NCBI RefSeq assembly: GCF_004151275.2
Contig: NZ_CP130821.1
Span: 2,666,001 to 2,730,000, forward strand
Reading direction: 5' to 3'
Length of the DNA: 64,000 bases
Origin: Flavobacterium dauae
Lineage (GTDB): Bacteria; Bacteroidota; Bacteroidia; Flavobacteriales; Flavobacteriaceae
Positions 20,601-40,800 of this stretch are shown here, one piece after another. The position numbers were made by a program, and so were the translations under genes. Positions within the stretch are counted from its first letter, which is position 1, and each line of letters starts with the position of its first letter. The notes beneath the pieces are model-generated. The model was not told the DNA's origin. It made no database searches and saw only the letters and a program-made list of their open reading frames with translations.

Positions 20601-23118
20601 TTAGTCCCGTTATTGTTTTTGTAGGGTTTGTAATCCAAGGTTGATTTTTAACGGTAACCTTAACTCCTGTCAATGTAATATAATGCGGTACTTGAAGCAC
20701 AGCTGTTGTAGGAACGAATAATTTACGGTATTCATTGTTAAAAATAACATCTTGCTTTTTAAAGCCTAAAATATTTGCCGAGAATGTTGCCGTATTAGTG
20801 CTCTCTTCACAATCTACAAAATTTTTAGATCCACCTGTAAAATCAAATCCGTAAGTAACATAGAATCCTGTTGCGGTATAAGTTCTACCACAAAGTACCG
20901 GTTCGTTGTTTGAATCTAAAATGATATATGATTTTGCAGGGAATTCTTTTAATCCTGTTGATGAGCTTCCCGCTTTTAACTCTATTGATAAACGTACCTT
21001 ATCAGCATCAGCCAATGGTGTTGGTAAGGTATAATTCAACACATAGGTTGATGACGTTTCTGTTACAGTTGCATTAGAAATAATGGTAACTCCATTAACA
21101 ATTACTTTACCCGAAGCAGTTCTTAACGTTGCATTAGCACTTGGATCTTTTTCAACCACTAAACGTACGCTGCTTGAAGTATCGGTTGTAAGATGTACGG
21201 TATTATCCTGATAAATTTCTAAAATATCACCTGTGATAAATGTTCTTACATCGGCATTTGTAGAAGGTGTTCCTACTGTTGGTACACCGCTACCGTTTAC
21301 CTCATATCCTAAAGAAACTCTGTTTACACCTGCAGGACCGTTTTCTAAGCCATTGGCACAAGGTCCTGTTGGGCAAAAACCTTTAAGTTTTGTTTCGGTA
21401 CATTTAAATACCACAGAAGTGCAGGGTGTTCCGCCGTTCATTTTTCTTAACTCACCACCTACCCTGTACCACAAGTTATCTAAATCAGGGTTGCTTGAAC
21501 AATCAAGTGTTATATCAAACAATAAACGCTCAAACGAGAAGTCTAAATCACCAGTTGCCCAAGGAGCTGTTCCGTAAGTAAAAGTAAGTTCGTATTTATT
21601 ACCAACAACGTTTACTGCATTTACACCTCCGAAACTAATTGTCGAAGCAGCCAATTCCGGAGATAGTTCTACCGTAATTACAAATTTATCGCCTACATTT
21701 AAATCTTTTGACGGAATATTAAAATTGGTAAATAAATGATCTGCCTGTAAAGCAGTTCCGCCAATAATATCTACTTCGCCAATGTGCATTCCTGCATAAT
21801 TGTACGTTGTTTCTCCACTAACGTTTCCGCCACTATTAACCGGTGCACACGCGTTAAGGTATTCATAAGTTGCAGCGAACGCATTTTGTCCGTTGCTAAA
21901 CTGCGTTGGTGCCGAAGCACAATTTGCTGCTGTACCGTTTGGTGCAGGGTACATTTGATCGAACTCAACTGTTACCGAAGCTCCTGCTGCTAAAGCCGGA
22001 ATAGTGATAATTGCAGATGTTGCTGTTGAACTTACTACGGTAGCCGGGGTTCCGTTTACCATAATAGTAGTAGCATTTATACCGTCTTGTGTTTTAATTT
22101 CAAAGGTAATTGCATCGGTAGCAACACTTCCGTTATTTTTAACTGTCCACGTATTTGTTCCGTAATTATTGAAACAATTTAGTACAGGCGATGCTGCGGA
22201 TGCTGTTACCGAAAGACTTGGAGCACCTGACACCTCTAAATTAATGATATGTGTTGCTGTTCCGTTAACTCCCGAAACGGTACATTTGGTTGAACAACCA
22301 TAATACACTTCATAGTTTGTGGCTGTAAGTGCACAATTAGCTATTTGTACTTTTTCTTTAAGAGTAACACTTTCTCCGGTTTTTAAACTAACTCCGGAAA
22401 AATGAATTTGGTTAGGGTTTGATGCATCAACGACCCAACCTAACGCTGTTAAGTTTGCATAATCATAAGAAATGTGAGAAAGACCGCTACCTAATGTACG
22501 GTCTAAGGTAAATTCTGAAATTTCGCCGTTACCTTGGTTTTTAATGGTAATGGTTCTTTCGGGCTGATCGCCTATATTACCAACAATGGGATCAGGAGTA
22601 ACCGAAACCCTTAAAACTGCATAACGGATATTAATTGTTTCGCTGCTTCCTGTTTGTGGAACACCATTACAACCGCTTAGCGTGTAAGTTACCGTAGAAT
22701 CTGTAGTAGATCCAATAATGTTGCATAAAGCTTTTGCATTAAAGGTAACTTCAATTTCTTGTGAAGACGATCCGGCAGGAATGTTTACACTTACCGTAAC
22801 CTCTTGACCTGTTTGGTTAGTAACCGTTGCCGGAATACCATCTACAAATACAGAATTTGTCTGTAATTCAAATCCGCTTGGGAGTTCTATTTTTAGCTCG
22901 CCATTTGGACAAGACTGACTCCCTTTTGCAATTTTAACCGTGAATTGCTGGTAATCGGCACATACATCAAGTACAGGAACACTACTATCTGTTTTAAGTG
23001 TTTGTGCCTGAACCGCACCTGCCGATAACAATAAAAAAGAAAATAGCACCAACAGTGAAACCGGGTTCCATTTTCTTAAAATTGCCGTAATTTTTGTTAA
23101 CGTAGTTTTATAATCCAT
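11632..23118 (-). CDS. Giant T9SS type B adhesin with about 25 HYR-like repeats (SprB-like)
   Basis: This 3,828-residue protein has a signal region (MDYKTTLTKITAILRK... then a hydrophobic stretch ending AGAVQAQ at 39). About residues 40-1580 are DUF11/Ig-like beta domains with many asparagines and paired cysteines. From about 1590 to 3720 there are about 25 tandem units of 78-92 residues, each with a conserved cysteine near the start (VSC or VEC), ATDNCG or ATDICG, and TATDACGN before the final strand, as in HYR domains. The last ~100 residues are a type B sorting domain (VTPNGDGYNDELVLKG; FNRWGVLVYETKDYN; LPTGTYWYVIKYNY). It is exported by T9SS and is probably a gliding or attachment adhesin. 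It is the first gene of an operon with porP/sprF and ompA. Repeats 16-18 and 20-22 are nearly identical. Confidence 0.93.
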   Translation of the reverse strand: MDYKTTLTKITAILRKWNPVSLLVLFSFLLLSAGAVQAQTLKTDSSVPVLDVCADYQQFTVKIAKGSQSCPNGELKIELPSGFELQTNSVFVDGIPATVTNQTGQEVTVSVNIPAGSSSQEIEVTFNAKALCNIIGSTTDSTVTYTLSGCNGVPQTGSSETINIRYAVLRVSVTPDPIVGNIGDQPERTITIKNQGNGEISEFTLDRTLGSGLSHISYDYANLTALGWVVDASNPNQIHFSGVSLKTGESVTLKEKVQIANCALTATNYEVYYGCSTKCTVSGVNGTATHIINLEVSGAPSLSVTASAASPVLNCFNNYGTNTWTVKNNGSVATDAITFEIKTQDGINATTIMVNGTPATVVSSTATSAIITIPALAAGASVTVEFDQMYPAPNGTAANCASAPTQFSNGQNAFAATYEYLNACAPVNSGGNVSGETTYNYAGMHIGEVDIIGGTALQADHLFTNFNIPSKDLNVGDKFVITVELSPELAASTISFGGVNAVNVVGNKYELTFTYGTAPWATGDLDFSFERLLFDITLDCSSNPDLDNLWYRVGGELRKMNGGTPCTSVVFKCTETKLKGFCPTGPCANGLENGPAGVNRVSLGYEVNGSGVPTVGTPSTNADVRTFITGDILEIYQDNTVHLTTDTSSSVRLVVEKDPSANATLRTASGKVIVNGVTIISNATVTETSSTYVLNYTLPTPLADADKVRLSIELKAGSSSTGLKEFPAKSYIILDSNNEPVLCGRTYTATGFYVTYGFDFTGGSKNFVDCEESTNTATFSANILGFKKQDVIFNNEYRKLFVPTTAVLQVPHYITLTGVKVTVKNQPWITNPTKTITGLNVNNAAYTLDVSAALKTITGSSLGGAVNGIDYLDEGFELEITPIVTISECEPITNAKNQTIAVTLNGNVIDGEGLTTAYSNTKNLVYNTGIGSLTLDTANNSNLGRLSPDGTKVSWVVKVESTGSRTFNSVWLAKSDNAANNNLIINSVEEVTNYNGDTVLTTVLPTGNMYQLDDFTSGTTKYYLIKADVINCSVESLKIRLGYSCTSNDYPGTINDGCRLADKTLTHKTITSILQTTIVDQFNGSSAKPDLCSEIWYGAQLHNAGDSQLNNLKITIPLNSAPGLAYNNKFEISNIFPAVGGSATTWTLGNPADAVVNGPNLEITLPASTALNTLERVQVRVYFKVNNCDFRSGAKHTVTPSALNTCGTAVTNITSATTKRLIISGGADAFPELREEGTTDVDLDPVLSTGGILRAVYNAEVKNSGEFGVNHVLSAPYQIALKLPADWSIVGDPNAYLQPAGFATYTPNLVPPVNPGDPALNPDPDRGYVFTITGSLPVGQTFKFVDVPLKYTGTDITTLGCNYNFGDIKLTVFQNIKVANCVPAPACAGSGIDQVLYENILPMELPVNTLLTIEPPYQTPKVCNPTVNGGIPTLADVPFEGTTTVYHLDWYENLQEATTDLPADRLPYSTPLVDGRTYYVINRFIVDGVCKSNIGTILVTLKNNNLTGTVTTLCSTDNQEYQVQVTLTGEAPFAVDSASTGYPGILAGNVWTSDPLPATTPYGAGTSYDVTFTDANNCTPLNLTGAAPMCCTLEITCPAVVTIACGTSIDPSVTGMPVVDKACGNTSFVYNDSAISSCVNGVKTFTRTFTVTDEQGNTAECEQIINITDLIDPVFNEALPQDTTVSCASEVPTAVSLTATDNCGNAVVTFVQNTTAGACANNFTVTRIWTATDDCGNTTVHTQTITVNDNIAPTFVGALPAAAVTVSCSANVPAAATLTATDNCGIATVTLVETTTAGTCANNFTLTRVWTATDACGNTATYTQVITVNDDIAPVFVGTLPANATVSCDNVPEAATLTATDNCGTPTVTMIETRTNGSCPNSYTLTRVYTAADVCGNSVSHTQVITVTDTVKPVFTSVLPTDITLSCSANVPAVPTVTAIDNCGTATVTFVETTTAGTCVNNYVVTRTWTATDACGNTETHTQTITVADTVAPVFTGTLPTDVTISCEAPVSATVEGTLTATDNCTAAGDIVITVNDVISNVNPTCTNNYTITRTYTATDECGNATTHTQIITIKDETAPVITTKPNPIPSFTECGGATATADYNAWLADNGGLDATDNCGAVTWSYEIEDTNTTCGNASTVIVNFKVTDACGNTSVRQAIFEYRDTTAPAVNTANLADLSLNCSSTSQDELNAWLSNHGGATATDVCGTITWTNDYQGGALTCGRTTTVTFTATDSCGNFDTVTADIIFTDHTAPVFNGALPANITLKCASAVPAAATLTATDNCGNAVVTFAEVTTAGTCANKYTITRTWTATDTCGNTATHTQIITVNDDVKPTFVGALPAATVTVSCSADIPAAATLTATDNCGTATVTLAETTTPGSCANNFTLTRVWTATDVCGNATTYTQTIIVDDKTAPLISTNAQNKTVQCSSTGYQAEFNAWLASNGGAIATDNCGAVTWSNNGATAPFVSTCGNAGSITVTFTATDACGNASTTNATFTIEDTTKPVFTSALPTDVTVSCESEIPATVEGTLTATDNCGGTVTITVNDVKSNVSSICTNNYTLTRTYTATDACGNSTDYVQIITISDTTKPVFVEALPENVTYSCDAAVPAAPTLTAKDSCSATAITATLVETRVDSGSCANNYVLTRTWTATDACGNTTTHTQVITVEDTIKPVFTTEPQNKVVECDGKGNLDGPEGFHAWLAANAGAVATDNCGTVTITHLIEDTNTICGGSGTIIVDFIAKDECGNITIKQATYAIFDRTPPTLTTQPVDLVIECGKNIEDELNAWLSNNGGAKANDICGLMTWKHNYTGQLSVCGAPIKVIFTVTDACGNFTGSNEVEVSLVDTTLPILTKPAQGLTVQCGANTTQALNNWLANHAGAEATDSCSTVSWTNNYNAANFVAACGTTGSVEVIFTGSDACGNVVTTTATFTIEDTTAPTLVKAAQNKTVECDGSGNSAELQAWLTSNAGATATDTCDADLTWTNDYDPANFAALCGATGSVTVTFTATDACGNNVSTVATFTIADTTKPVFTTEPQNEIVECDGSGNTTAYNTWLTSYGNSVATDICGTVTYSYSVIDTAVLCGSTSKTTVEFTATDACGNNVSKQATFTIQDTTVPVITTEAVALTIECGTDASNQINTWLNNQGGATATDICGAVTWSHNYNGLTTTACGNTGSALVTFTATDACGNISTTQATVSVVDTTLPILTKPAQGLTVQCGANTTQALNNWLANHAGAEASDSCSTVTWTNNYNAANFVAACGNTGSVEVIFTGSDACGNVVTTTATFTIEDTTAPTLVKAAQNKTVECDGSGNSAELQAWLTSNAGATATDTCDANLTWTNDYDPANFAALCGATGSVTVTFTATDACGNNVSAVATFTIADTTKPVFTTEPQNEVVECDGSGNTTAYNAWLASYGNSVATDICGTVTYSYSVIDTAVLCGSTSKTTVEFTATDACGNNVSKQATFTIQDTTAPDFITEAQDLVVECDGTGNNSDLSAWLNNRAGATATDSCSAGLTWTNNFTGLSKDCGQTGSAIVIFTATDACGNTSETTATFTIVDTTAPVFNMNLPQDRTIECSDPMPEVESLTADDLCSKATVSFTEKRIDGNCPNNYELVRTWIATDACGNTTEHIQTITVQDTTAPEFVSELPAKEIFIKCEDLKDAEVLKATDNCGVATVTVSDEVVPSECGDTKYTILRTWTAADGCGNNTSYTQTIHLSCKIEVFNAVTPNGDGYNDELVLKGIECYPGNTVEIFNRWGVLVYETKDYNSNGNTFKGFANGRVTISKSSMLPTGTYWYVIKYNYDLGSGSVYPIEQAGYLHLETTK
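12710..14580. repeat. Tandem duplication inside the adhesin, 1,068-bp period
   Basis: The segment at about 12710-13510 recurs at about 13778-14580 with only scattered differences. Matched landmarks at 12721 and 13789, and at 13471 and 14539, are both exactly 1,068 bases apart. That is 356 codons, or four HYR units. Units 20-22 duplicate units 16-18 almost residue for residue, whereas units 19 and 23 differ. This is a recent in-frame expansion, or a site of ongoing homologous exchange. Confidence 0.9.
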
Positions 23119-24522: not shown

Positions 24523-25748
24523 ATGTTTACAATAAATTTTTCTATTAGTTCTCCCGATTCTACAGGATATTCACAAATCATTACCACTATTACCTCTGAG
24601 AAAAAACAAGATTATATTTTTTATACAACGCTTCGTATTATTAAAAATGATTGGAATATTGAAAGGCAAAGACCAAAAAATATCTATACAAAGAAGCACA
24701 AGCTTATTTATTCTTTTTTAAACAAGATAAAGATTGAAGTATCTGCCCTTTTACATGAATACCACACTAAAAAAGAAAAAATCTGTACACAAAAACTAAA
24801 AGAATGTATTAAAAAGTGTACTGCTATAAAATACATCCATTCCATTAAAAAAAATAGCTTTTTGTATTTTGTAAATCTTTATATTGAATCAAGAAGTCAT
24901 TTAATCACTCATTCTACTTATAAACGTTATATGTTTTTTTAAGAATGTTCCGCGTATTTGAAGGATACAGCAAAAAATATTTTAACGTATCTGATATAAA
25001 CATACATTTTGTAAATGAATTTATGTTATTTGGCAAAATGGAACAATATAGCCCTAGTACATTGAGAAGAACCATAAATTTTATAAAAACCATATTGAAT
25101 TTTATAGAACGCAGAGGCATACGAACGGCTGTATATGAAATTGCTTTACCAAAAGAAATAAAAGATGAAAACAGCGTAACCTTATCTATAGAAGAGCTAA
25201 ACAAAATTAAGAATACTGTTGTTGATAATTACGTACAAACCGCTAAACAATGGTTGCTTATAAGTTGTTATACCGTGCAAAGAATTTCAGATTTTATGAA
25301 TTTTTCGCAAAGTCAGATTACAAGTATTGAAGGAAATAAATGCCTTACTTTTCAACAAAAGACAGGAAAGAAAATAACCCTACCCTTACATAAAGAAGTT
25401 TTAGATATTTTAAAAGCAATTGACGGTTTTCCTAAAAAGATGAATTTTCAGGAGTATAATAAAAAAATCAAAAACATTGTAAAACAAGCCGGAATTTGTG
25501 AAAAAATTCTTATTTCAAAAAGAAAAGGGTTTAGAAAAACAACCGCACAATTCTTTAAATACGAAACCGTTAGCAGCCATATAGGCAGACGGAGCTTTGC
25601 TACAAATTTTTATGGAAAAATCCCTACCCCACTGCTTATGGAAGCAACAGGGCACAGTTCTGAAAAAATGTTTCTAAAATATATTCATATTGCAGACAAG
25701 CAAAAAATACTGCTTCTTAATCAATATTTTAATGAATTAGTAGTATAA
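24523..25748 (+). pseudogene. Tyrosine recombinase (phage integrase family), split by a frameshift
   Basis: The reading frame is broken in a run of seven T at 24934-24940. The first part (24523-24942, 139 codons) is the arm-binding and start of the SAM-like core-binding region. The second part (24945-25748, 267 codons) continues core binding and holds the whole catalytic domain. One extra T would join them. In the second part the catalytic set is complete: R113 (YTVQRISD), K139, H212 and R215 (SHIGRRSF), H237 (ATGHSSEK) and the nucleophile Y246. Joined length of about 407 is normal for Bacteroidota integrases. It could be a true mutation, a sequencing error in a homopolymer, a phase-variable tract or programmed -1 frameshifting. 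It is divergent from the HTH pair across the inverted-repeat segment. Confidence 0.85.
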
Positions 25749-26846: not shown

Positions 26847-27419
26847 TTATTGCTTATGAAGTTCCATAACGCGTTTCTTTGCCCGAAGTAAACGCATTTT
26901 AATTGCACTTTCTTTTAATCCTAAGAGTTCTGAAATCTCTTTAATTGTCAAATCATCCTGATATTTCATTAAAAGGATTATACGGTCGTTGTCGGATAAT
27001 TTTTGAAGAATTTCCTGAAGATTATTATAGCTTATTTCAAATAAATCTTCATCGTCAATGTCGTCTATAAGATCAAGATTTTCCGTATCAGCATTTACAT
27101 CATCAGAAACTTCGTAAAAAACAATTTTTTGTGATTTTTTCTTATTAATATAATTAATACAAAAATGATGAACTACAGAATAAATCCAGGTTGATAACTT
27201 GGATTTGCCTTTAAAAGTGTTTAAACTAACGTAGATTTTAATAAAGATATCGTGTGTTAAATCTTGTGCTTCGGCTTCTGAATTTACAAAACTATAACAC
27301 TTATTATAAACAAATTTCGCATACCTGTCATACAATATGGAAAAATAATACGAATCTTTAGTATCAACAATCAATTTTACCAATTCTTCATCAGTATAAT
27401 TTACCTTATGCCCTAACAA
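26847..27419 (-). CDS. ECF-type RNA polymerase sigma factor
   Basis: This 190-residue sigma-70 family protein has region 2 (about 25-95, including AEAQDLTHDIFIKIYVSL and STWIYSVVHHFCINY) and region 4 (about 130-185, LSDNDRIILLMKYQDDLTIKEISELLGL with the HTH KESAIKMRLLRAKKRVME). An acidic linker (NADTENLDLIDDIDDEDL) joins them. It is the first gene of an operon with a 65-residue protein and MscS. No classical anti-sigma gene is adjacent. A TATTTTTG box (minus strand, 27447-27454) lies 28-35 bases upstream. Confidence 0.95.
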   Translation of the reverse strand: MLGHKVNYTDEELVKLIVDTKDSYYFSILYDRYAKFVYNKCYSFVNSEAEAQDLTHDIFIKIYVSLNTFKGKSKLSTWIYSVVHHFCINYINKKKSQKIVFYEVSDDVNADTENLDLIDDIDDEDLFEISYNNLQEILQKLSDNDRIILLMKYQDDLTIKEISELLGLKESAIKMRLLRAKKRVMELHKQ

Positions 27420-27775: not shown

Positions 27776-28339
27776 ATGAAAAAAATGAAACTTTTTACAG
27801 CTTTATGCTTTACGTTAGCTTTTGCAAATGCAAATGCGCAAGCAGACTCTAATCAAGAAACCCACACAATTGGTATTACCATACCGGCTGTAGCCTTGGT
27901 AGATGTTGAAGGAGGAACAAATATTGATTTAACTTTTGCAGCACCTACAGAAGCCGGTTTACCAATAGCAGCACCCACAGACAACAATAGCTTATGGCTA
28001 AACTACTCCTATATCCCTTCAATAGGAAAAACAACTTCAAAAATTACAGTAAGTATTGATCCTGTTATTCCGGGAATAGACCTCAAAGTAATTGCAGCCG
28101 CAGATAGCGGAAACGGAGGAGGAACAACAGGAACACCTGCGAGTATTGTTACACTTACCGGCGCTCCCGGAACAGACTTTATCACTGGAATTGGAGCTTC
28201 TTACACAGGTACAGGAAATGTTGGGCATAATTTAACATATTCTGCAGTTGCTGCAGGTAGCGCTACTTATGATGAACTTATAGAAGTTGCCGCAGCATCT
28301 AATCAAACAACTGTTACTTACACTATCGTTGAGAATTAA
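27776..28339 (+). CDS. Secreted fimbrial-subunit-like protein, 187 aa (putative major subunit)
   Basis: A signal peptide (MKKMKLFTALCFTLAFANANA) leads into a glycine-, alanine- and threonine-rich beta protein. Shared with the 181-residue protein at 32271 are VALVDVEGGTN, FAAPTEAGLPIAAPT, a WLNY segment, an IPGIDLKV segment, a GIGASYTGTGNVGHNLTYSA segment and a C-terminal strand VTYTIVEN. The two are clear paralogs. A terminator-like hairpin follows (28374-28411), so this gene can be expressed above the genes downstream, as for major pilins. Size, signal peptide, end strand and the chaperone- and usher-like neighbours suggest a fimbrial subunit. No known family is recognised with certainty. 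Confidence 0.7.
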   Translation: MKKMKLFTALCFTLAFANANAQADSNQETHTIGITIPAVALVDVEGGTNIDLTFAAPTEAGLPIAAPTDNNSLWLNYSYIPSIGKTTSKITVSIDPVIPGIDLKVIAAADSGNGGGTTGTPASIVTLTGAPGTDFITGIGASYTGTGNVGHNLTYSAVAAGSATYDELIEVAAASNQTTVTYTIVEN

Positions 28340-28373
28340 CAGTTTCTATAAATAAGTCATTTCAAACAACAGC

Positions 28374-28411
28374 AAGTAGTGTTCTTTTTATCAAAACAAA
28401 AAACACTACTT
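28374..28411 (+). terminator. Hairpin after the major subunit-like gene
   Basis: AAGTAGTGTT and AACACTACTT form a 10-bp stem with an 18-base loop, followed by TTGTTACTTTTTATT. It is a likely full or partial terminator. Confidence 0.65.
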
Positions 28412-28455
28412 TGTTACTTTTTATTAATAAATGATTTTTAAACCTTCATTTAACT

Positions 28456-29253
28456 ATGTGTGTAAAAAAAATATTCTTTTTTATAAGTGTTTTCTTTGCT
28501 TGTAACTGTGCTTTTGCCAGTATTGTAATTACCAATGGTTTAACGCATACCCATAACGTAAAAGAAGGTACGGTTTATAAAGGTATTATTACGATTGAAA
28601 ATACAGCTGAAACCTCGCAAAATGTAAAATTATACCAAAAAGATTACAGTTATAAAGCAGACGGCACATCGTATTACAACGACCCGGGGTCAAACGAACG
28701 CAGCAACTTGCAATGGATAAAACTAAATACCAATTTATTAAAATTAGAAGCTAAAGGTAAGGTTGATGTTGCGTATGAAATTGTAGTACCCACAAATATA
28801 GACGCCGGTAGTTATTGGAGTGTGATTATGGTTGAACCTGTTGATGAAATTAAACCGAGTAATGACAAACCGGGCGTGCAGATTAAATCGGTTATTCGTT
28901 ATTCTATACAAATTATTACCACAAATGATCAGCCTGCCGAAGCGTTGCTTACATTTGATGCCATAAACCTTACCAAACAAGACGGTAAACGAGTATTACA
29001 ATTAGATATTGCCAATAACGGACAATTGTATCATACGGTAGAAGCATCTATTGAAATTTTTGACAATAAAACCGGAAGTAATAAAGGTACTTATTTAAGT
29101 AGCAAATTAAGTTTACTGCCCAACAATTCAAAACGTTTTACAATTGATCTTAGCACTGTTGCACCAGGAAAATACAGCGCTGCCATTCTTGCCGCCACTC
29201 ATGACGAGCAAATTTTTGGCATCAATATAGAATTAGATATTCCTAATGAATAA
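28456..29253 (+). CDS. Periplasmic two-Ig-domain protein, chaperone-like, 265 aa
   Basis: A signal peptide ends at CAFA (about residue 21). The mature part looks like two Ig-type beta domains. The first (about 22-140) includes HNVKEGTVYKGIITIENT, NVKLYQKDYSY and IDAGSYWSVIMVEPVDE. The second (about 145-265) includes IRYSIQIITTN, LQLDIANNGQLYHTVEA and FTIDLSTVAPGKYSAAIL. This is close in length and architecture to PapD-type fimbrial chaperones, and the SYWSVIMVEP strand resembles the chaperone edge strand. It also recalls the DUF916-like domains of Gram-positive WxL systems. It lies between a subunit-like gene and an usher-like gene. The chaperone function is an inference. Confidence 0.65.
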   Translation: MCVKKIFFFISVFFACNCAFASIVITNGLTHTHNVKEGTVYKGIITIENTAETSQNVKLYQKDYSYKADGTSYYNDPGSNERSNLQWIKLNTNLLKLEAKGKVDVAYEIVVPTNIDAGSYWSVIMVEPVDEIKPSNDKPGVQIKSVIRYSIQIITTNDQPAEALLTFDAINLTKQDGKRVLQLDIANNGQLYHTVEASIEIFDNKTGSNKGTYLSSKLSLLPNNSKRFTIDLSTVAPGKYSAAILAATHDEQIFGINIELDIPNE

Positions 29254-29289
29254 AACAATAATTGTATCGCGTAGTTTATTATAGAATTC

Positions 29290-29546
29290 CCACAGACGCA
29301 CAGATTTTTATGCTTTGCTTAAATAAAGAGGCTGTCTAAAAAGTGTCATTTTGAACGAAACGAAGTGAAGTTGAAAAATCTTAAGTATTAATTATTAGAG
29401 ATTTCTCCTTCGTCGAAATGACAACTAAACTCAATTTCCTGACTTTTTAGACAACCTCAATTTATTGAATGCAACGCATTCAAAAATCTGTGAAAATTTA
29501 ATTATTATAAACTTTAATCTATAAAATTATATCTGTGTATCTGTGG
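29290..29546. repeat. Outer inverted repeat pair
   Basis: CCACAGACGCACAGAT (29290-29305) and ATCTGTGTATCTGTGG (29531-29546) are inverted copies with two mismatches. An additional AAAAATCTGTG lies between. Such CACAGA-type palindromes are common interspersed repeats in flavobacterial genomes, as I recall. The inner element sits within this pair. Confidence 0.7.
29328..29458. repeat. MITE-like palindromic element, 131 bp
   Basis: The ends GAGGCTGTCTAAAAAGT and ACTTTTTAGACAACCTC are inverted repeats with one mismatch. Next inside, GTCATTTTGAACGAA and CTTCGTCGAAATGAC also pair in part. There is no coding capacity. The inner GTCATTTCGACGAAGGAGAAATCT motif is a familiar interspersed flavobacterial repeat. 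I could not identify a target-site duplication. Confidence 0.75.
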
Positions 29547-29595
29547 TAAAAAAAAACAAATAACTGAATATCATATTATTAAATTTCATTAGATA

Positions 29596-32274
29596 ATGCA
29601 CTATAGGTTTGTATTATTCTTTTTTATTTTTCCCTTATTTTTATACGCCCAAGAACTCTCGGTTGAATTTGTAAATCAAAAAGAGCTTCTTAATCCGGGT
29701 AAGGTACATTCTTTGGTATTTAAAATCAGCAATCCGTATCCTTACGAAGTGACAGCAACTCCGGAAATAAAACTTCCTGACGAATGGCTTTTGTCATCTG
29801 TACTTTCGGATATTCATTTAACAGCTAATGATTCAAAAATATATCTAATTTCAGTTCACATACCTTCTTTTTCTTCAAAAGGAGCACACAACTTGCATTT
29901 TACGCTTAACAACAAAACACAAAATCAAACCACAAATTACAATTTTGTTTTAACGGTAAACCAAATACAAAAAGTAACTATAAATACTATCTCTTCAACA
30001 AATTATGTGAAAGCAGGCGATACCATTCGCAGTGTTTTTAGTATAAAAAACGAAGGAAACAACATAGAAGAAATTATATTGGAAACCTCTACAGGTGCTT
30101 TTATTAAGGATGCAGATACGTTGCAAATTCCTGCCGGAAAATCAGCAGAAATTAAGGTTTATCAGCCTACAAATCTTAAACAGCCTCGCCCTTCGCAAAA
30201 CCTTATAAAACTTACCGCTTTTATAAAAAACGATTCGTTACAAAGCGTTTATGCCTATCACAGAACAGATGTTGTTCCTGTTTTTCAGGAAAATGAAGAC
30301 GTGTATTTGCGTTTTCCCGTAAAAGTTTCGGCAACGTATATTGCAAGAGAACGAGCAAACAATTTTCAGGATGCCTTTCAAGGAGAGATTTACGGCAAAG
30401 GAACTTTAGATGAACAACAAACCAAACAACTCGAATTTCGTGCGGTTGGCCCAGACAGGTTTGGACTGACTGCTTTTTCGCAATACGAAGAGTATTTTAT
30501 CAACTATGGTTCAAAAAACTTTTTTATTCATCTGGGCGATAAAGTTTACTCGTCTTCCTATTTAACCGAATTTGCCCGTTACGGACGAGGTTTTGAGGTT
30601 CGTAAAAACTTCAATAAATTAGAAATAGGCGGATTTTACAACAATCCTCGTTTTTTTAAAGATATTAAAGATGAAGTTAATGCGTATGCAAAAATAAATT
30701 TCAATTCAAAAAACAACCTACGTTACGGCTATTTGTTAAAACGAACTAATGAAGGAAATCAAAATCATTTACAATACCTTTCGGGAGAAACCACACTATT
30801 AAAAAAAATAGAGCTTCAGGGCGAATATGCTTTAAGTACAAACGATAATTTTAACGGAAATGCCTGGCAATTACAAGCACAGGCAACTTTAACAAAGTTA
30901 AATGCAAGTGCAAGTTACATTAATACTTCGCCCCATTTTACAGGATATTTTACCAACTCTCGGTTTTTCACATCGCATATCAATTACCGTATTTCATCAA
31001 AATTTTCTGTTCACGGAAATTATCAAAAAGACGCTCGTAATTTTCAACGCGATACACTTTACAGTGCTGCTCCATATAGAGAACGTTTACAATTAGGATT
31101 AAGTTACAACTACTTAAAAAAAGGAACCGTTTCTTTGTTTAGCGGTATTCAAGAGTATGAAGATCGTATGAACGTAAAACAGTTTTTTTATAAAGAAAAA
31201 TTTGCCCGTATTGATCTTAATCAAGAAATAGGTTCTTTTGGTATTAATTTGCAAACATATTTTGCCCAAACAACTAATTTTTTAATAAACAACACGGGGA
31301 ATTCATCTGTGTACACCGCTAATTTTAACTATAACAAAAAAGGCACAACCGTTAATTTATATGGCAGTTATTCGCAGGTAAACAGGTATCAAACAACAAA
31401 TCAAAATTTGTTTCTTTACGGTGGGCGTATCAACAGTTTTTTATCAAATAAATTTAATGTATCAGCTTTTTATCAAAACACTTATTACATTGAAGATTAT
31501 TACACAGATCGAAATCTTTTTGAACTTTCATTGAATTACAAAATTTCGCCTAAACAGGAAATTAATGTCATTTCAAGATACGCTTTAGCACAACAGCAAC
31601 TAGAAGACAAAGATTTTTCGCTCTCGGTAAAATACACCTTGCATATCAATGCACCTGTTAAAAAAATAAAAGAATATGGTACACTTCATGGAACCATTAC
31701 TAATTTAGGTACCACAAATACAAAAGGTATAAAATTATATTTGGGACAACAAACAGCAATTGTTGACGAATACGGAAATTTTATGTTTAAAAATATAAAA
31801 CCCGGCACTTATTTTTTAGAAATAGCTCAAGGAGATTTAAATTTAAAAGACATTACCAACAGTAACTTTCCTGCTAAAATAACAATTGCCGAAGGCGAAA
31901 ATTATTTTAATTTTGGTATTACCCAAGCCGCTAATATTTTAGGACGAATTGTTGTTGAAAATAAAAGTACTTTTACCGAAAAAGAAAGCATTATTGTAGA
32001 AGTTTCGTCAGAAAATGAAGTTTACAGAAAAATATGCGATATAAGCCAACCTTTTGATTTTACCTATTTAAGACCCGGCAAGTGGCAATTAAAAGTATAT
32101 AGAAACGGTTTAAACAAACTGTATAAAATAAATAATGATACATTTGATATTACATTGACTCCCGCAGAAAATAAAGAGGTTTTAATAGAAATATCAAAAC
32201 AGCAAAGAGAAGTAAAATATTTACAAGAGCCAGTAAAAGTAAGTTATAACGTTTCTAAAAAAATAAAAAAATGA
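29596..32274 (+). CDS. Usher-like outer-membrane protein, 892 aa
   Basis: A signal peptide (1-18) is followed by two Ig-like domains (about 20-230; for example HSLVFKISNPYPYEVTATPE and VFSIKNEGNNIEEIILETS). A long stretch of amphipathic strands rich in Tyr, Phe and Asn (about 235-690) looks like a large beta-barrel; it includes FIHLGDKVYSSSYLTEFARY. Two beta-sandwich domains of carboxypeptidase-regulatory type come last (about 694-775, GTLHGTITNLG...DEYGNFMFKNIKPGTYFLEI; and 780-860). This order of N-domain, barrel and two C-domains, and the length, parallel fimbrial ushers. It is not a TonB receptor: there is no plug or TonB box. It overlaps the next gene by four bases (ATGA at 32271-32274). 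Usher function is inferred. Confidence 0.65.
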   Translation: MHYRFVLFFFIFPLFLYAQELSVEFVNQKELLNPGKVHSLVFKISNPYPYEVTATPEIKLPDEWLLSSVLSDIHLTANDSKIYLISVHIPSFSSKGAHNLHFTLNNKTQNQTTNYNFVLTVNQIQKVTINTISSTNYVKAGDTIRSVFSIKNEGNNIEEIILETSTGAFIKDADTLQIPAGKSAEIKVYQPTNLKQPRPSQNLIKLTAFIKNDSLQSVYAYHRTDVVPVFQENEDVYLRFPVKVSATYIARERANNFQDAFQGEIYGKGTLDEQQTKQLEFRAVGPDRFGLTAFSQYEEYFINYGSKNFFIHLGDKVYSSSYLTEFARYGRGFEVRKNFNKLEIGGFYNNPRFFKDIKDEVNAYAKINFNSKNNLRYGYLLKRTNEGNQNHLQYLSGETTLLKKIELQGEYALSTNDNFNGNAWQLQAQATLTKLNASASYINTSPHFTGYFTNSRFFTSHINYRISSKFSVHGNYQKDARNFQRDTLYSAAPYRERLQLGLSYNYLKKGTVSLFSGIQEYEDRMNVKQFFYKEKFARIDLNQEIGSFGINLQTYFAQTTNFLINNTGNSSVYTANFNYNKKGTTVNLYGSYSQVNRYQTTNQNLFLYGGRINSFLSNKFNVSAFYQNTYYIEDYYTDRNLFELSLNYKISPKQEINVISRYALAQQQLEDKDFSLSVKYTLHINAPVKKIKEYGTLHGTITNLGTTNTKGIKLYLGQQTAIVDEYGNFMFKNIKPGTYFLEIAQGDLNLKDITNSNFPAKITIAEGENYFNFGITQAANILGRIVVENKSTFTEKESIIVEVSSENEVYRKICDISQPFDFTYLRPGKWQLKVYRNGLNKLYKINNDTFDITLTPAENKEVLIEISKQQREVKYLQEPVKVSYNVSKKIKK

Positions 32275-32816
32275 ATAATAGTATCGTTTTATTTTGTTGC
32301 TGTTTTTTACTATCTATGTGTAGTACAAGCTTGCTGTATGCACAAACTACAGGCAGCAAAAATGTATCATTAAATCTTTCTGAAGTTGCTTTACTTGATA
32401 TTGAACCTAATACAAATAATATTTCATTTAATTTTACCGCCCCTACAGAAGCAGGAATGCCTATAAGCAACCCAACAGCTAATACCACTAAATGGCTTAA
32501 TTACACATCGGCAAAAGCCACAACTACGGCTAATAGAACAGTATCTGCCCAAATAGATCAAATAATTCCGGGAATTGCCATAAAATTACAAGCAGGTAGC
32601 GCAACCGGTGGTGGTGGTACATTAGGTACAACTACCGGACAGAAAACATTGACCACATCGCCTCAAATCATTGTTAGTGGTATTGGAGGTGCTTTTACCG
32701 GAAACGGAGCAAACCACGGACACCAACTAACTATTTCTGCTACCATTACCAATTACACCCAATTGGTACAAACTAACAATAAAACAATTACCATAACCTA
32801 TACCATAAGCAATTAA
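32271..32816 (+). CDS. Fimbrial-subunit-like protein, 181 aa (paralog of 27776)
   Basis: A signal peptide (about 1-24) is followed by a beta-rich, glycine-rich protein. It matches the 187-residue protein along its length: LSEVALLDIEPNTN, NFTAPTEAGMPISNPT, a KWLNY segment, IIPGIAIKLQAG, GIGGAFTGNGANHGHQLTIS, and the ending ITYTISN. Its ATG overlaps the usher-like stop and it ends one base before the next ATG, so it is coupled to both. The likely role is a minor or tip subunit. Confidence 0.7.
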   Translation: MNNSIVLFCCCFLLSMCSTSLLYAQTTGSKNVSLNLSEVALLDIEPNTNNISFNFTAPTEAGMPISNPTANTTKWLNYTSAKATTTANRTVSAQIDQIIPGIAIKLQAGSATGGGGTLGTTTGQKTLTTSPQIIVSGIGGAFTGNGANHGHQLTISATITNYTQLVQTNNKTITITYTISN

Positions 32817-32817
32817 G

Positions 32818-33339
32818 ATGATAAGATATAATAAGATAGAAGCATTGGTATTGACTATTTTGTTCTTTATAGGCTTTACAATAAATGCACAAACTATAGT
32901 TGTTGGTGGTAGCAATTGGAGTATTCCCATTACCCCGATAACCGAAGCCGGAATGGATTATACAGGAACTTTTGAGAGTGCTACTAATCAATTTTTGATT
33001 TCTGCTACAATTCCAGGACTTTTGGGCTTATTAAGAACTGAAACTGTTCAAGTACATTTCGAAGAAAACCCTCTATGGAACAATAACTTAACATTTGATA
33101 TCCGCAGAACAACTTCTGGCGGCGGCGGCGGAATATGTGTACTATGTAGTGTTAGCGGAGGTACTACCTATCAACCAATAACAAAAAATACTACAAATTT
33201 TTTTAATCTTAACATTCCTATTGGTATAGGAGCTAAAAATTTTACTAATATTCCAATACAATTAAAATTAAGTGGAACTTCTGTTACACTACCTGTGGCT
33301 AATTATAATGCTCGAATTGTTTTCACTATTACAAATTAA
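32818..33339 (+). CDS. Secreted subunit-like protein, 173 aa
   Basis: A signal peptide (about 1-24) leads to a beta-rich protein with ITEAGMDYTG near the start, which resembles the PTEAGxPI motif of the two neighbours. A glycine run (GGGGG) with CVLC follows, and it ends IVFTITN, like the YTI end strand of the others. Overall similarity is weaker, so it may be a specialised tip or adaptor subunit. The two close cysteines could form a disulfide. It starts one base after the 181-residue gene and is the last gene of the cluster. Confidence 0.65.
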   Translation: MIRYNKIEALVLTILFFIGFTINAQTIVVGGSNWSIPITPITEAGMDYTGTFESATNQFLISATIPGLLGLLRTETVQVHFEENPLWNNNLTFDIRRTTSGGGGGICVLCSVSGGTTYQPITKNTTNFFNLNIPIGIGAKNFTNIPIQLKLSGTSVTLPVANYNARIVFTITN

Positions 33340-33425: not shown

Positions 33426-33499
33426 GGGGGATTGGCGCAGTTGGCTAGCGCGTTTGACTGGCAGTCAAAAGGTCACGGGTTCGAATCCCGTATTCTCCA
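33426..33499 (+). tRNA. tRNA-Ala (anticodon GGC)
   Basis: The 74-base sequence folds into a full cloverleaf. The acceptor stem GGGGGAT pairs with ATTCTCC, including the G3-U70 pair that identifies alanine tRNAs. The D arm is GCGC/GCGC. The anticodon stem is TTTGA/TCAAA with loop CTGGCAG (GGC at 34-36), and the T arm ACGGG/CCCGT has TTCGAAT in its loop. The discriminator is A and CCA is not encoded. Confidence 0.93.
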
Positions 33500-33502
33500 C
33501 AA

Positions 33503-34847: not shown

Positions 34848-37800
34848 TTATTGTAAATAATGACTAAAATACGTTCTAAAACCAATATCTCTTAAATAAG
34901 CTTGACCATGTAGAATATAAGGATGAATACCTATATTAATAAAACCTGATCTTATAAAAGCACTACTAGTGTGAGTAACACAACTGCTTGTGTAGACATT
35001 ATATTTTGGAGTATGATTTGTTAAATCTGAACCATAATTTAATATCTTATTTTTATTAATACCTGAAACTTTGGTTCTCCAGATTGGTGATCCATCATTT
35101 GTATGATTTGACCAGTCATTTCCCCCTCTTACACTTTTAAAAGGATTTAATGAAAAATCTCGATCTGGAGGTCCAAAAGATACAATAGATTGATTATCAT
35201 TAATAACTCCTGGTTCAACTATTGCGGAGTGCCCAATTGTATCAGAATTTTCGGTTACTAATTCTACATCACCTATGTTCGCAAGGTTAGTTCCAATAAT
35301 AATATCATTAATGTTAGCGATAGCTCCCAGTCCATAACCTAAATTCTCTAAAAAGGAATTTCCTTTTTTTCCGAAAAAGCCTATAGTTCCAGAAGAGAAA
35401 TTTATTGATCCTATACCAAAACTAACAACAAAGTCTGTTTCTCCTCCTGTATAAAGGTTCGTTCCAATGCTATTAACGGCAGAAGCTGTAACAATAGCCC
35501 ATGTATTAGCAAATGCAACTCCGGAGCCAGCAACATAACTTCCTAAGCCTCCACTAACCCCGCCAACTATAGCACCTCCTAACATGTATCCCCAAGTCTT
35601 TCCTGAACTATAATCCCATTGAAAAGGGTTATAATTTTGATTAGCCTGTGAACCTCCAATATAAGCCCCCACAACTGCGCCTACTATCACAGCTGCCCAT
35701 ACAATCTCGCCACTCGGATCAGTAAAAATTAACGGATTGTTCCAAGCATAACCGTAGCGGTTATAATTTTGCGAATTTGCAGGATCCTGTACAAAATTAT
35801 CGGGGGCTAAAAAACGGTGTAACTTGGCATCGTACAAACGGGCGTTCATATTTATAAGCCCTACTCCTTGTAAATGTTCGTGCCCCGTGTACCCACGTTC
35901 TAAAAACGTTAATTTACCCAGATTATTGTTTTGTCCGTCTTGTACCAAAAGTACATTACCCCAGGCATCAAAATGGCGTTTTTCTACAATATTTCCGACA
36001 TTATTCGTTATTGCCAAGATACTGCCTAAATAATCGCGGTGCAAATAATAAAATGCCGTAGTGTTGTTTTCTTTACGCTGAATAATACTTGCCGTGTAAG
36101 GGTCTCCATCTACATATATGTTAACAATGTATTTATTGGTGGCTTTATCAAAATCAACTTCTATATCGCCTGCCGGAGAATAGTAGCGTACTTTTGAAGA
36201 AGCAGTTTCATCAGCAGCTTCATTACCATAATACATTGCTACTCGGTTATCAAAACCATCGTATTTAAAATAAATGTTTTCTTTACCTTGCTGTTTTATA
36301 GTCAGCGGTGCTTTATGGGTATTATAGGTAACCTGCTGTAACGGGTTATTTTGGTAATATGCCAGATCATTCAGGTTCTCTACATTTTGCAGTTGGTAAG
36401 CTTTTGCAGAATCATAATTGTAATCGCCCACATTATTGTTTAAAATACGTCCTTTACCATCGTACGTATTGGTTTCTTGTGCAATAATAGCAGATCCTTG
36501 TTTAGTACTATTGTTTGTTAAACGATCAAATGTGTCGTATTGAAATGTTTCATTAATTCCACCTGTAAACAAGGTATTGCTACGTGAGGTTAAATTTCCT
36601 CTTTGCACATCCCAAGTATTATTTAAAGTAAAGGATGCTGCATTGTTTTTATTAACCGTATTCTGTGTTAAATAACCGTATTGGTCATACGTACGGTTAG
36701 TAACCAAACCATTAGCAAGTGTAAAGCTTGTAACTTGCCCTCGTTGGTTAAACGAATTGTAAACCTTTAAATCGGTATTACTTACTGCATTTTGCAATTT
36801 CCATAAATAACCGTTTTTATACACGTTTTTGGTTTTTACGGCATCTGTTCCGCTAGCACCTGTAACTTTCTTTTCTTCTGTTAAAACGCGCCCAAGATTG
36901 TCAAACGTATAAGTATAATTATAAGTAAAACCTAAAGGTGTGGTATATTTCTTAGCTATTATCCGTTTATAATTATCATATGTAAAATTTTCTACATAAG
37001 GACCATCCGCAGAATTAGTAATTATATTTGTTGGTAATTTATCTGCATTGTAATTGTATGCAATATTTTTACCTGAATGGGAAGTTGTGGCAATTTTCCC
37101 TGTTGCATCATAAGTATATACAGTGTTACCATTTGGAGTGGTTTCTTTAAGTAAATCGCCAATACTGTTATACTGGTAAGTATAAGTACCTGCCGACGGA
37201 TCGGTCATTTTTGTTTTTCTACCCCAACCGTCGTACTCAAAACTGATTACTGTTCCGCCGTAATTGGTGTTTTTCAGCGTTCCGTTAAGGTTATAACTAT
37301 AATTAATTGTTTCACCGTTGTCAACTACTTTTTTAGTTTGGTTGTTTGCGTTCTTTGTTTCAGTTTTGGTTTTTACACCGTCGTTTACCGTAGATGACAA
37401 TCCGTTGTAACTTGCTGTAATTTCTCTACCAGTAGGCAAAACAGTTTTAATAACACGTCCGTATTTGTCGTATTCAAAAGTAGTAAATAATGATGCTGTA
37501 GAAGTATATGGTTCACTCTTTTTAATTAAACGGTCTTGCGAATCATAATTATAAGATGTATTAATCCAATTACCCTCTATATCCGTATATCCTTCTGACG
37601 ATTTATTTCCCCAAGCATTCGTTGTAACTTTTTGCTTACGTCCGTCTGCATAATTTGTTTCTTTACGGACAAAAGAAGACCCAAGATCGAACCGGCTATT
37701 TGTTTTATACGCAAAATTAGTCGTGTTACCGAGGTAATCTGTTTCTGAAATAGTCATTCCCAATGCATTAAAACCAGAAGAACTAGTTAATCCATACGGG

Positions 37801-40800
37801 TTGGTTTGAGACAGCAGCCAACCTTTGTTTTTATTATAAACATAAGTGGTTTCCAAACCTTCAACGTCAATTGATTTTTCGATATAACGCCCGGAAGTAT
37901 CATAAATATAACTTGCAATACGTGGTTGGATACCACTTGCAGAAATAGTTTTTTTGATTACGTTTCCAAATATATCAAACTCGTTTGTTTCTGAAAGCTC
38001 TGACGATCCAGCAGCTCCTTGTTTGGTTACATTTGTTAAAAGATGATTTGCATACGTATATACTTCTTTTGAGGTTTGTACGTTATTCATCTTTATTGTC
38101 TTCGATGCCGGACGTCCGATATAATAATTATCGTTTGCTAAACTATGGATATAAGTAAATACAGAATTTAATGTAGAAGTTTCACCACCACCGGTTACTG
38201 TTTCCGTAACTGAAAGCGGATTGGAATAGACATCGTAAGTACTATTTATTGTACGTTGAATACCTGTTAACCCTTCATTAATAACAGATTGGGTATTTTG
38301 TGCTTTAAAAACCTTGTTTGATAAATTGGTAATATTATAGGTGTTAACTTTTTTGGTCAAGAAATTTACCGGAGTAGTAAAGAAGTTTGCCCAATCAGTG
38401 CTATGAGCAACATATTCTTCTTTAACTAAACCGTTATTATCTAAATCAAAAATGGTTATATTTTTAATCTGGTCTTGTAAGTCATAGATCGTTGATCCAC
38501 CTATATAGATATTGGTAACCATACGCCCTTTAAAGCCTAAAAAACCTTTCCCGTTATAGCTTATTGTAGGATCGGCGTAAGAAAAAAGCTGCTTACGTTC
38601 TGTGGTTTCTCCTAAACGCAAACTTTGAGTATCATAGGTAACTTTGGTTACCAGATACATACCGGGTACAATATCTATATCGGCTTTAGGATAAACAGAC
38701 ATTGGTTGACTAAATGAAGTAAAAGGTACTACCGCATCCTCTAATTTATCATAAACGCCTTGTCTTGTGTTTTTTCCTTCGTCATAGACATTATAAGTAA
38801 TTTTTGTTATTATATCAAATTCATTAATAGTGCTTAATGTTTGTGTTTTAACATTGTCTTTATTAGATTTTAATATTTTTAATTTATTATCGGTTAGTAG
38901 GGCTAATTCCGTTTTATAGTTTTTTTGATTAAAATTTGAATTTACGATAATTGGAAAGCGATTTGTATGAGATATTAGCTGGTGAGCTCCACTAGGCATT
39001 TGAAAAGAAATGTCTTGTGATTCCGAATCGAACTTTAAATTTTCAAAAGTATAAACGGCGGTCATATAACTAGATCGCTCATTTCCATAATAATCTACTA
39101 AAGACTTGTCTAAAGTCTTAATAATATCAGTCTTCCCATCATTATTGATATCGGAAAAAATATAATTGTATGAGGTATGCGATTCCTCTTGTGTGCTATA
39201 ATATGATTTTTCATCGATATTATAAGGAATTCCTATGTTTTTCGCAAAATGATTAAAGTCTCCGTTGTCTTTATTAATATAAAATATCCATTGATTAGAT
39301 GAAGTTTCTTTTTTAGCCGGTGATAACGGAGTTATGAAATCTAATTTTCCATCACCATTAAAATCCCCAAGATATACCGCTTTACCATATTTAACATCCG
39401 GCATTCCTTGGTCACTATACAAATCTAATTTTTTAGTAATTAAATTAAATTTATAGATTCTAATATTTTGATGTCTGATTACGATAAATTCATCATATCC
39501 ATCTCCATCAATATCTACTACTTGATAATTAAATCCTATAGGAATATTCGGGGTTGTATATACCGTACTAGTAGTAGTATCAAGAATTTCGACATCTGTA
39601 CTATATTGATTATCTCCTTCATCATCGAAGTTACGCCCATGTTCCATTCTAACAATTTCAGTAATACCGTCTCCGTTAAAATCACCGCTTAAAAATTGCC
39701 TTCTTACATTAGGTTTGCCATACATTGTTAGCGTAATAGGATCGCCCTGTTGATAAACAGTCAGAGCGGTTCCGGGAACATATACGTAACTATTAAAAGT
39801 ATACTTAACTCCTTCTACATTAGAGCTAATTTCAGTAACAGTCGTCCAACCAAGGTTTGGAAGCAAAACGTTGCTATGGTTTAGTCTTTTTGAAGTTACA
39901 ACATCCAAGAATGGTTTTGAAGTGAAGCTCTGTTTAAAAATCAAAGGTTTGTTTTGATCAAAAGGATCTGTTGGATCTGATGGATTATAAACATATAATT
40001 TACTACCATCAATACACTGCATATAATTGTCGTTTACAGAAGTTCCCATCATCAAAAAACCAATATGACCACTCCCGCTAAAATCTCCGGTAAGCACTTT
40101 AGAATTATGTGAAGATAGTTTACTAAATCCTACTCCAAAATCATCTTTTATTACAAAAGACTCTTCTGCAATTATGTTTTCAGTCGTTATATCTGAACCG
40201 TAAGTAAAACTTACTGGTTTTTTAGACAGTGTACCATCACCTGAAGTTTCCGTGATTTTTTGTAGCCTTTCATATCCTAATGAAGTCGTTGTATAAGTTA
40301 ATTGATACGTTCTATAATTTTCTGCAAACCCCTTAACCGTAATTTTATCTAAAATTTTAGTAGATTTTGAAGATTCACCGAAAATATATCCGGTTTCTTC
40401 TCGGTTTCTGTTTTTATAAGTAAAAGAAATAGAATTATATCCATTAAGAACCATTATAGAAGATAACGGATCTGTACTTCTATACCCATATCTAATACTT
40501 GAAACTAATAAGTTTCCATTATCAACAATATAATGGTAATTAATTACAACATTTTGTGGATTTATTAAATATGTAAGTGCATAAACTGTATTTGTTTTTG
40601 TCGGGGCCCCTATAGAACCAACAAGAGTTCCCTTATATCTTCTTCCGTAGTAAGCAATGCTTCCATCAGGATATTGTACTTTAAAATATTCAGGAGCATA
40701 ATTAGACTGCGGATTTCCGTGCGAAGTAATTTTTAAATTACTATAAGTTTCTGTTTGGTATTCTGCACCGTCCATTCCATAAGTTCCAGACTTTAAAAGC

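Follow-up and report, generated by a model that had tools for sequence, protein, structure and literature searches.

The locus analysed here raises the question of what a run of five consecutive genes for exported proteins may assemble at the surface of Flavobacterium dauae. The genes lie in a stretch of 64,000 nucleotides of contig NZ_CP130821.1 (positions 2,666,001 to 2,730,000; hereafter the window), part of a single-contig genome of 2.94 Mb. They encode, in this order, a small subunit-like protein (sub1), a putative chaperone with two immunoglobulin-like (Ig-like) domains, a predicted outer-membrane barrel protein and two further small proteins (sub2 and sub3). All five open reading frames (ORFs) begin with a hydrophobic leader, as judged by eye. 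An earlier reading of the sequence (the initial annotation) had proposed an analogue of the chaperone-usher pathway or, alternatively, a WxL-like surface system; its coordinates and lengths for the five ORFs were exact, as were the 4-base overlap between the barrel and sub2 genes (32271–32274) and the gap of 1 base between sub2 and sub3 (32817). The results described below indicate that the cluster probably encodes a chaperone-usher-like pilus pathway.

The layout of the five genes was compared in relatives of the cluster. A scan of genome contigs gave 127 stretches encoding a relative of the barrel, of which the best 80 were kept, and the ORFs of their loci were labelled by phmmer. The barrel relatives belong to the genera Paenimyroides, Flavobacterium, Myroides, Chryseobacterium, Elizabethkingia and Arundinibacter. 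The order sub1-chaperone-barrel-sub2-sub3 was found in 73/80 relatives; in the other seven, sub2 and sub3 formed a single ORF (three cases), the first subunit was nearer to sub2 by score (two), the chaperone ORF was in two pieces (one) or the contig started at the chaperone (one). The 4-base overlap of barrel and sub2 recurred in 67/80 relatives, and the chaperone and barrel genes overlapped by exactly 8 bases in 78/80. So, the five-gene layout is not a product of chance, and the scattering of the genes among relatives, named in the initial annotation as a danger to its proposal, was not found in these 80 loci.

Two intergenic regions deserve separate mention. Chaperone and barrel genes of the window are separated by 342 bases instead of overlapping by 8, which, given the overlap in nearly all relatives, is probably a derived state; a repeat with inverted ends lies inside this gap (Table 1). 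Concerning the gap between the sub1 and chaperone genes, where the initial annotation had placed a terminator of sub1, its folding z was -2.8 in the window, and values below -2 were obtained in 49/76 relatives versus 12/79 control stretches upstream of gene 1. A hairpin after the sub1 gene is supported by this excess, but its role as a terminator is just plausible, because the rule "hairpin then T run" was satisfied in 39/76 relatives and in 45% of shuffles, which were thus not clearly beaten.

The barrel protein was modelled with a predicted local distance difference test score (pLDDT) of 83.0 and a predicted template modelling score (pTM) of 0.58. In the model, a barrel of about 26 strands (residues 235–693) is preceded by two Ig-like domains and followed by two C-terminal beta domains. 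When the whole protein was compared with the PDB by Foldseek, ranks 1–11 were all occupied by FimD/PapC ushers, with E from 8e-15 to 9.5e-11. The usher layout anticipated in the initial annotation is therefore borne out by the model as regards the terminal domains and the barrel, but not as regards the number of strands, anticipated as 24, or the plug (see below). The proposed link of the window barrel to ushers rests on modelled structure, neighbourhood and gene order.

Concerning the chaperone, the two-Ig protein anticipated in the initial annotation is, by sequence comparison, a member of the WxLIP family. It matched PF11797 (WxLIP host-binding domain) with 31.8 bits (cut-off 28.9), and among 32 chaperone relatives PF11797 was present in 28 and PF06030 in 27 at E<=0.1. 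The profile of these 32 relatives reached the chains 9i25 (3.9e-12) and 9i1y (5e-12) of Enterococcus faecium WxLIP1, both domains being covered, so that EfmWxLIP1 can be taken as a solved homologue.

Concerning the subunits, sub1 and sub2 form one family. In 50 rows of their alignment, residues 32, 34 and 36 of sub1 were hydrophobic in 96–100%, and residues 31, 33 and 35 in 2–6%; this strictly alternating N-terminal segment of sub1 and sub2 resembles a donor strand and is considered a candidate for it. Structure was approached with a natural sub2-sub3 fusion from a relative, as a stand-in for the separate subunits of the window, using an alignment without unfused sub3 sequences (MAFFT stacked them on the wrong half). 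Chaperone-usher pilins were the closest to this model, with modest scores: CupB6 and CfaB were the top Foldseek matches, while the VIA list was headed by two chains titled TLP-1a/TLP-1b, pilins being otherwise best. The first mature residues of the model were disordered. A missing Ig strand is indirectly supported in sub1/sub2 and weakly in sub3. Neither sub1/sub2 nor sub3 matched a Pfam family in scans of the subunits and their relatives, and sub1/sub2 had no match among PDB sequences; against the subunits of Escherichia coli K-12, the sub1/sub2 profile scored 5.5e-4 over 48 columns, starting inside the leader, and the sub3 profile 0.017. Judging from its place and from the hairpin after its gene, sub1 is likely the shaft subunit. 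For sub2 and sub3, a position at the tip or the base is likely.

The homology of the chaperone to WxLIP agrees with a different explanation, a WxL-type coat of a diderm, in which the WxLIP-like protein would stably hold single subunits at the surface or the peptidoglycan and the barrel would merely export or anchor them, with no fibre formed. This is improbable in view of three sets of data. PF13731 (WxL domain) had no candidates in the genome itself (a Lactococcus lactis control was positive), and none among 50 sub1/sub2 members at E<=1. The chaperone is short (265 residues), and no membrane helix was seen by eye at its C-terminus, while passages of a published study give 337–365 residues and a transmembrane helix for Gram-positive WxLIP (PMC10599100). 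Finally, WxL clusters are without a large conserved barrel, while the barrel present here has ushers as its best Foldseek matches. Because the WxL domain is absent, the cluster is, by its sequences, not a WxL cluster; the WxL-like alternative of the initial annotation holds for the chaperone and fails for the subunits.

Several results weigh against a chaperone-usher pathway. The VIA list for the barrel model placed MtrB above the ushers and porins level with them (a family missing from this list is not thereby excluded). The barrel contains no plug domain, its longest stretch between neighbouring strands being 15 residues. PF00577 (Usher) had no match in the window barrel at E<=1 and none in its own genome, and the comparison of the barrel family with seven E. 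coli K-12 ushers was not significant (hhalign 0.055). In the Pfam scan of the window chaperone, a match to PF00345 was absent at E<=1. Since PF00577 and the plug were looked for and neither was found, the cluster is, as judged from sequence, not a member of the classical chaperone-usher family.

The rank of MtrB and porins in the VIA list goes along with the idea of a porin-like or MtrB-like outer-membrane protein of the ordinary kind, flanked by surface proteins unrelated to it. This seems very unlikely, as gene order and overlaps are conserved across the 80 relatives and whole-protein Foldseek favours ushers. Moreover, the barrel profile matched 17/395 Bacteroidota genomes at E<=1e-13 and, from the coordinates, a chaperone match stood directly beside the barrel on the same strand in 16 of them, from seven families, the exception being a fragmentary barrel that contains a stop codon. 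A recent gain from Proteobacteria of a chaperone-usher operon, classical or archaic, which the likeness in fold of barrel and subunits would suit, is hardly credible: the cluster gave no match to PF00577, to PF00345 or to pilins at E<=1, 80/80 record titles of relatives are Bacteroidota, and PF00577 was above its cut-off (27.1) in 0/296 Bacteroidota genomes.

The chaperone-usher-like reading draws further support from sister clusters. The window cluster is called here class A, a second locus of the same genome class B, and a third class, from other Bacteroidota families, class C. The class B locus has genes for two small exported proteins, a chaperone of 265 residues, a protein of 361 residues and a barrel of 931 residues. 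Homology between classes A and B extends over the length of the barrels (hhalign 9.3e-22, 831 columns) and to the chaperones (7.6e-25 over 241 columns). Class C has a homologous chaperone (2.1e-16 versus class A), a barrel of 949–1455 residues and small subunits; the sole class C subunit scanned was a DUF4402 protein (37.7 bits, cut-off 25.2), a family that may be of pilins. PF00577 was detected at E<=0.001 in 3/296 Bacteroidota genomes, only in class C barrels and with 18.7–24.3 bits, and in all three the class C chaperone gene adjoins the weakly matching barrel.

The classical proteins were represented by profiles from E. coli K-12, built on seven sequences for the ushers and eight for the chaperones, and reversed profiles were used as controls. 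Class C barrels matched the K-12 ushers with 7.9e-10 over 558 columns (reversed control 0.01), while the K-12 chaperones were matched by those of class B with 1.1e-7 over 205 columns (reversed 0.55) and by those of class C with 1.2e-5 (reversed 0.33). The class B barrel did not match the K-12 ushers significantly (0.1), the alignment of class A and class C barrels was limited to the C-terminal domain region, that of class B and class C barrels to 146 C-terminal columns, and no usher was found with class C barrels among PDB sequences. The class A chaperone compared directly with FimC-type chaperones gave 0.0087, not significant; the proposed WxLIP-to-PapD link is thus transitive, bridged by the chaperones of classes B and C. 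The analogy with chaperone-usher systems put forward in the initial annotation is supported by the FimD/PapC ranks, by the pilin-like fusion model and by FimC being reached through a sister class. Its two ideas, chaperone-usher and WxL-like, both fit and are not mutually exclusive, and the cluster is best filed as a chaperone-usher variant with a WxLIP-type chaperone.

It seems reasonable to propose the following route. The three Ig-like subunits, of which at least sub1 and sub2 would be short of one strand, would be exported by Sec, and in the periplasm the chaperone would supply a strand to them before bringing them to the outer-membrane barrel. At the barrel, the chaperone strand would be displaced by an extension at the N-terminus of the subunit next in line, and this exchange would polymerise the subunits into a growing fibre that would exit through the barrel; we infer adhesion as its possible function. 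In a wider view, to which we incline somewhat, Bacteroidota may hold an uncharted chaperone-usher radiation with no fewer than three classes, of which this genome has two. In this radiation, PapD and Gram-positive WxLIP would belong to one strand-donating superfamily, and one class would use a barrel that has about 26 strands and no plug, gating and assembling unlike FimD.

The spread of the cluster is patchy. Barrel matches of any kind (E<=1e-3) occurred in 55 genomes, many of them in the C-terminal domain only, and the chaperone profile matched 36/395 genomes, some with class B or C. Within the genus, a barrel at E<=1e-20 was found in 5/249 genomes, the present one counted, three being full length and stop-free. 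Class B barrels were found in 28/296 genomes of the order. One family (f18) has five genomes with a chaperone match and without a barrel match; one stretch of that family (L127, G276:C48:82000-96000) carries a strong chaperone homologue, as an ORF of 301 residues, and neither the barrel nor a subunit was matched there.

Table 1. Positions of the cluster, its flanking genes and the sister loci (window numbering unless a genome or locus is given)
Feature	Position	Strand	Basis or remark
Phage-type integrase gene	24945-25748		Flanks cluster
Extracytoplasmic function (ECF) sigma factor gene	26847-27419		Flanks cluster
sub1, exported, 187 residues	27776..28339	+	One family with sub2
sub1 candidate donor strand, mature N-terminus, residues 23-37	27842..27886	+	sub1/sub2 alignment
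Hairpin between sub1 and chaperone genes	28374..28411	+	T-rich stretch after it
WxLIP-type two-Ig chaperone, 265 residues	28456..29253	+	PF11797 and profile match to EfmWxLIP1
Repeat with inverted ends, inside chaperone-barrel gap	29320..29470	none	26 genome matches, own copy counted
Usher-like outer-membrane protein, 892 residues	29596..32274	+	Predicted structure and Foldseek
sub2, exported, 181 residues	32271..32816	+	One family with sub1; fused to sub3 in L011, L028, L081
sub2 candidate donor strand, residues 26-36	32346..32378	+	Same alignment as sub1
sub3, exported, 173 residues	32818..33339	+	
tRNA-Ala gene	33426-33500		Flanks cluster
Class B cluster, outside window	G000:C1:2464383-2470685 (L122:3384-9686)	-	Chaperone profile match
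Class C loci, seven, other Bacteroidota families	L129, L144, L146-L150		

Among the neighbours, the ECF sigma factor was considered as a dedicated regulator and rejected, as a single resembling ORF was found in the relatives' loci (L054, several kb off). Seven other neighbour genes had 0 matches in these loci, many of which end at contig ends, so that both results are weak evidence. Two large proteins are encoded on the minus strand of the window: one of 2147 residues (34848-41291), which combines an N-terminal domain of the SpvB type with RHS and FG-GAP repeats, adjoins two small exported-protein genes; the other, of 3828 residues (11632-23118), carries a CHU_C signal for type IX secretion besides its HYR-like domains.

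As far as literature searches show, the pathway of the cluster is undescribed: no description of this system or of a Bacteroidota chaperone-usher branch was among the matches listed from open-licence PubMed Central. A passage of a 2015 paper lists Proteobacteria, Cyanobacteria and Deinococcus-Thermus as carriers of archaic chaperone-usher systems, Bacteroidetes not being named (PMC4654587). If the proposal is true, the range of chaperone-usher systems would be extended by a major phylum through the Bacteroidota radiation, and surface fibres would be predicted in Chryseobacterium, Elizabethkingia, Myroides and Flavobacterium. The Gram-positive WxL system would gain a mechanistic parallel, with a strand-lending partner, and a testable evolutionary link, the chaperone of the cluster joining the WxL and PapD worlds; the plugless usher would test which usher parts are needed for pilus assembly.

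Compared to known chaperone-usher systems (FimC/FimD, PapC/PapD and the archaic ones), the cluster shares the arrangement of a subunit, a two-Ig chaperone, a large barrel flanked by beta domains at both termini, and more subunits; its barrel and subunit models have ushers and pilins (CupB6, CfaB) as first Foldseek matches, and profile comparison leads from its sister classes to FimC and FimD. It differs in the absence of PF00577 and PF00345, in the number of strands, in the lack of a plug and in the WxLIP family of its chaperone. In PapD-like chaperones, an Arg and a Lys form the subunit-binding pair; by eye, neither is at the matched places of the window chaperone, while the class B rows have the Arg in 10/12 and the Lys in 5/12. 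With Gram-positive WxL/WxLIP clusters it shares the chaperone, homologous over both Ig domains, and differs from them in having no WxL domain, no C-terminal membrane helix in the chaperone and an outer-membrane barrel; in an AlphaFold2 model reported there, a strand of WxLIP completes WxL (PMC10599100). TLP-1a and TLP-1b (PDB 9ikj and 9ikk, known here by title only) show 14% and 13% identity. The type V pili of Bacteroidia, made from lipoprotein pilin precursors, are pili of the same phylum; the cluster differs from them in that the leader columns that are invariant or nearly so in the sub1/sub2 and sub3 alignments include no cysteine, and in that it includes a chaperone and an usher-like barrel.
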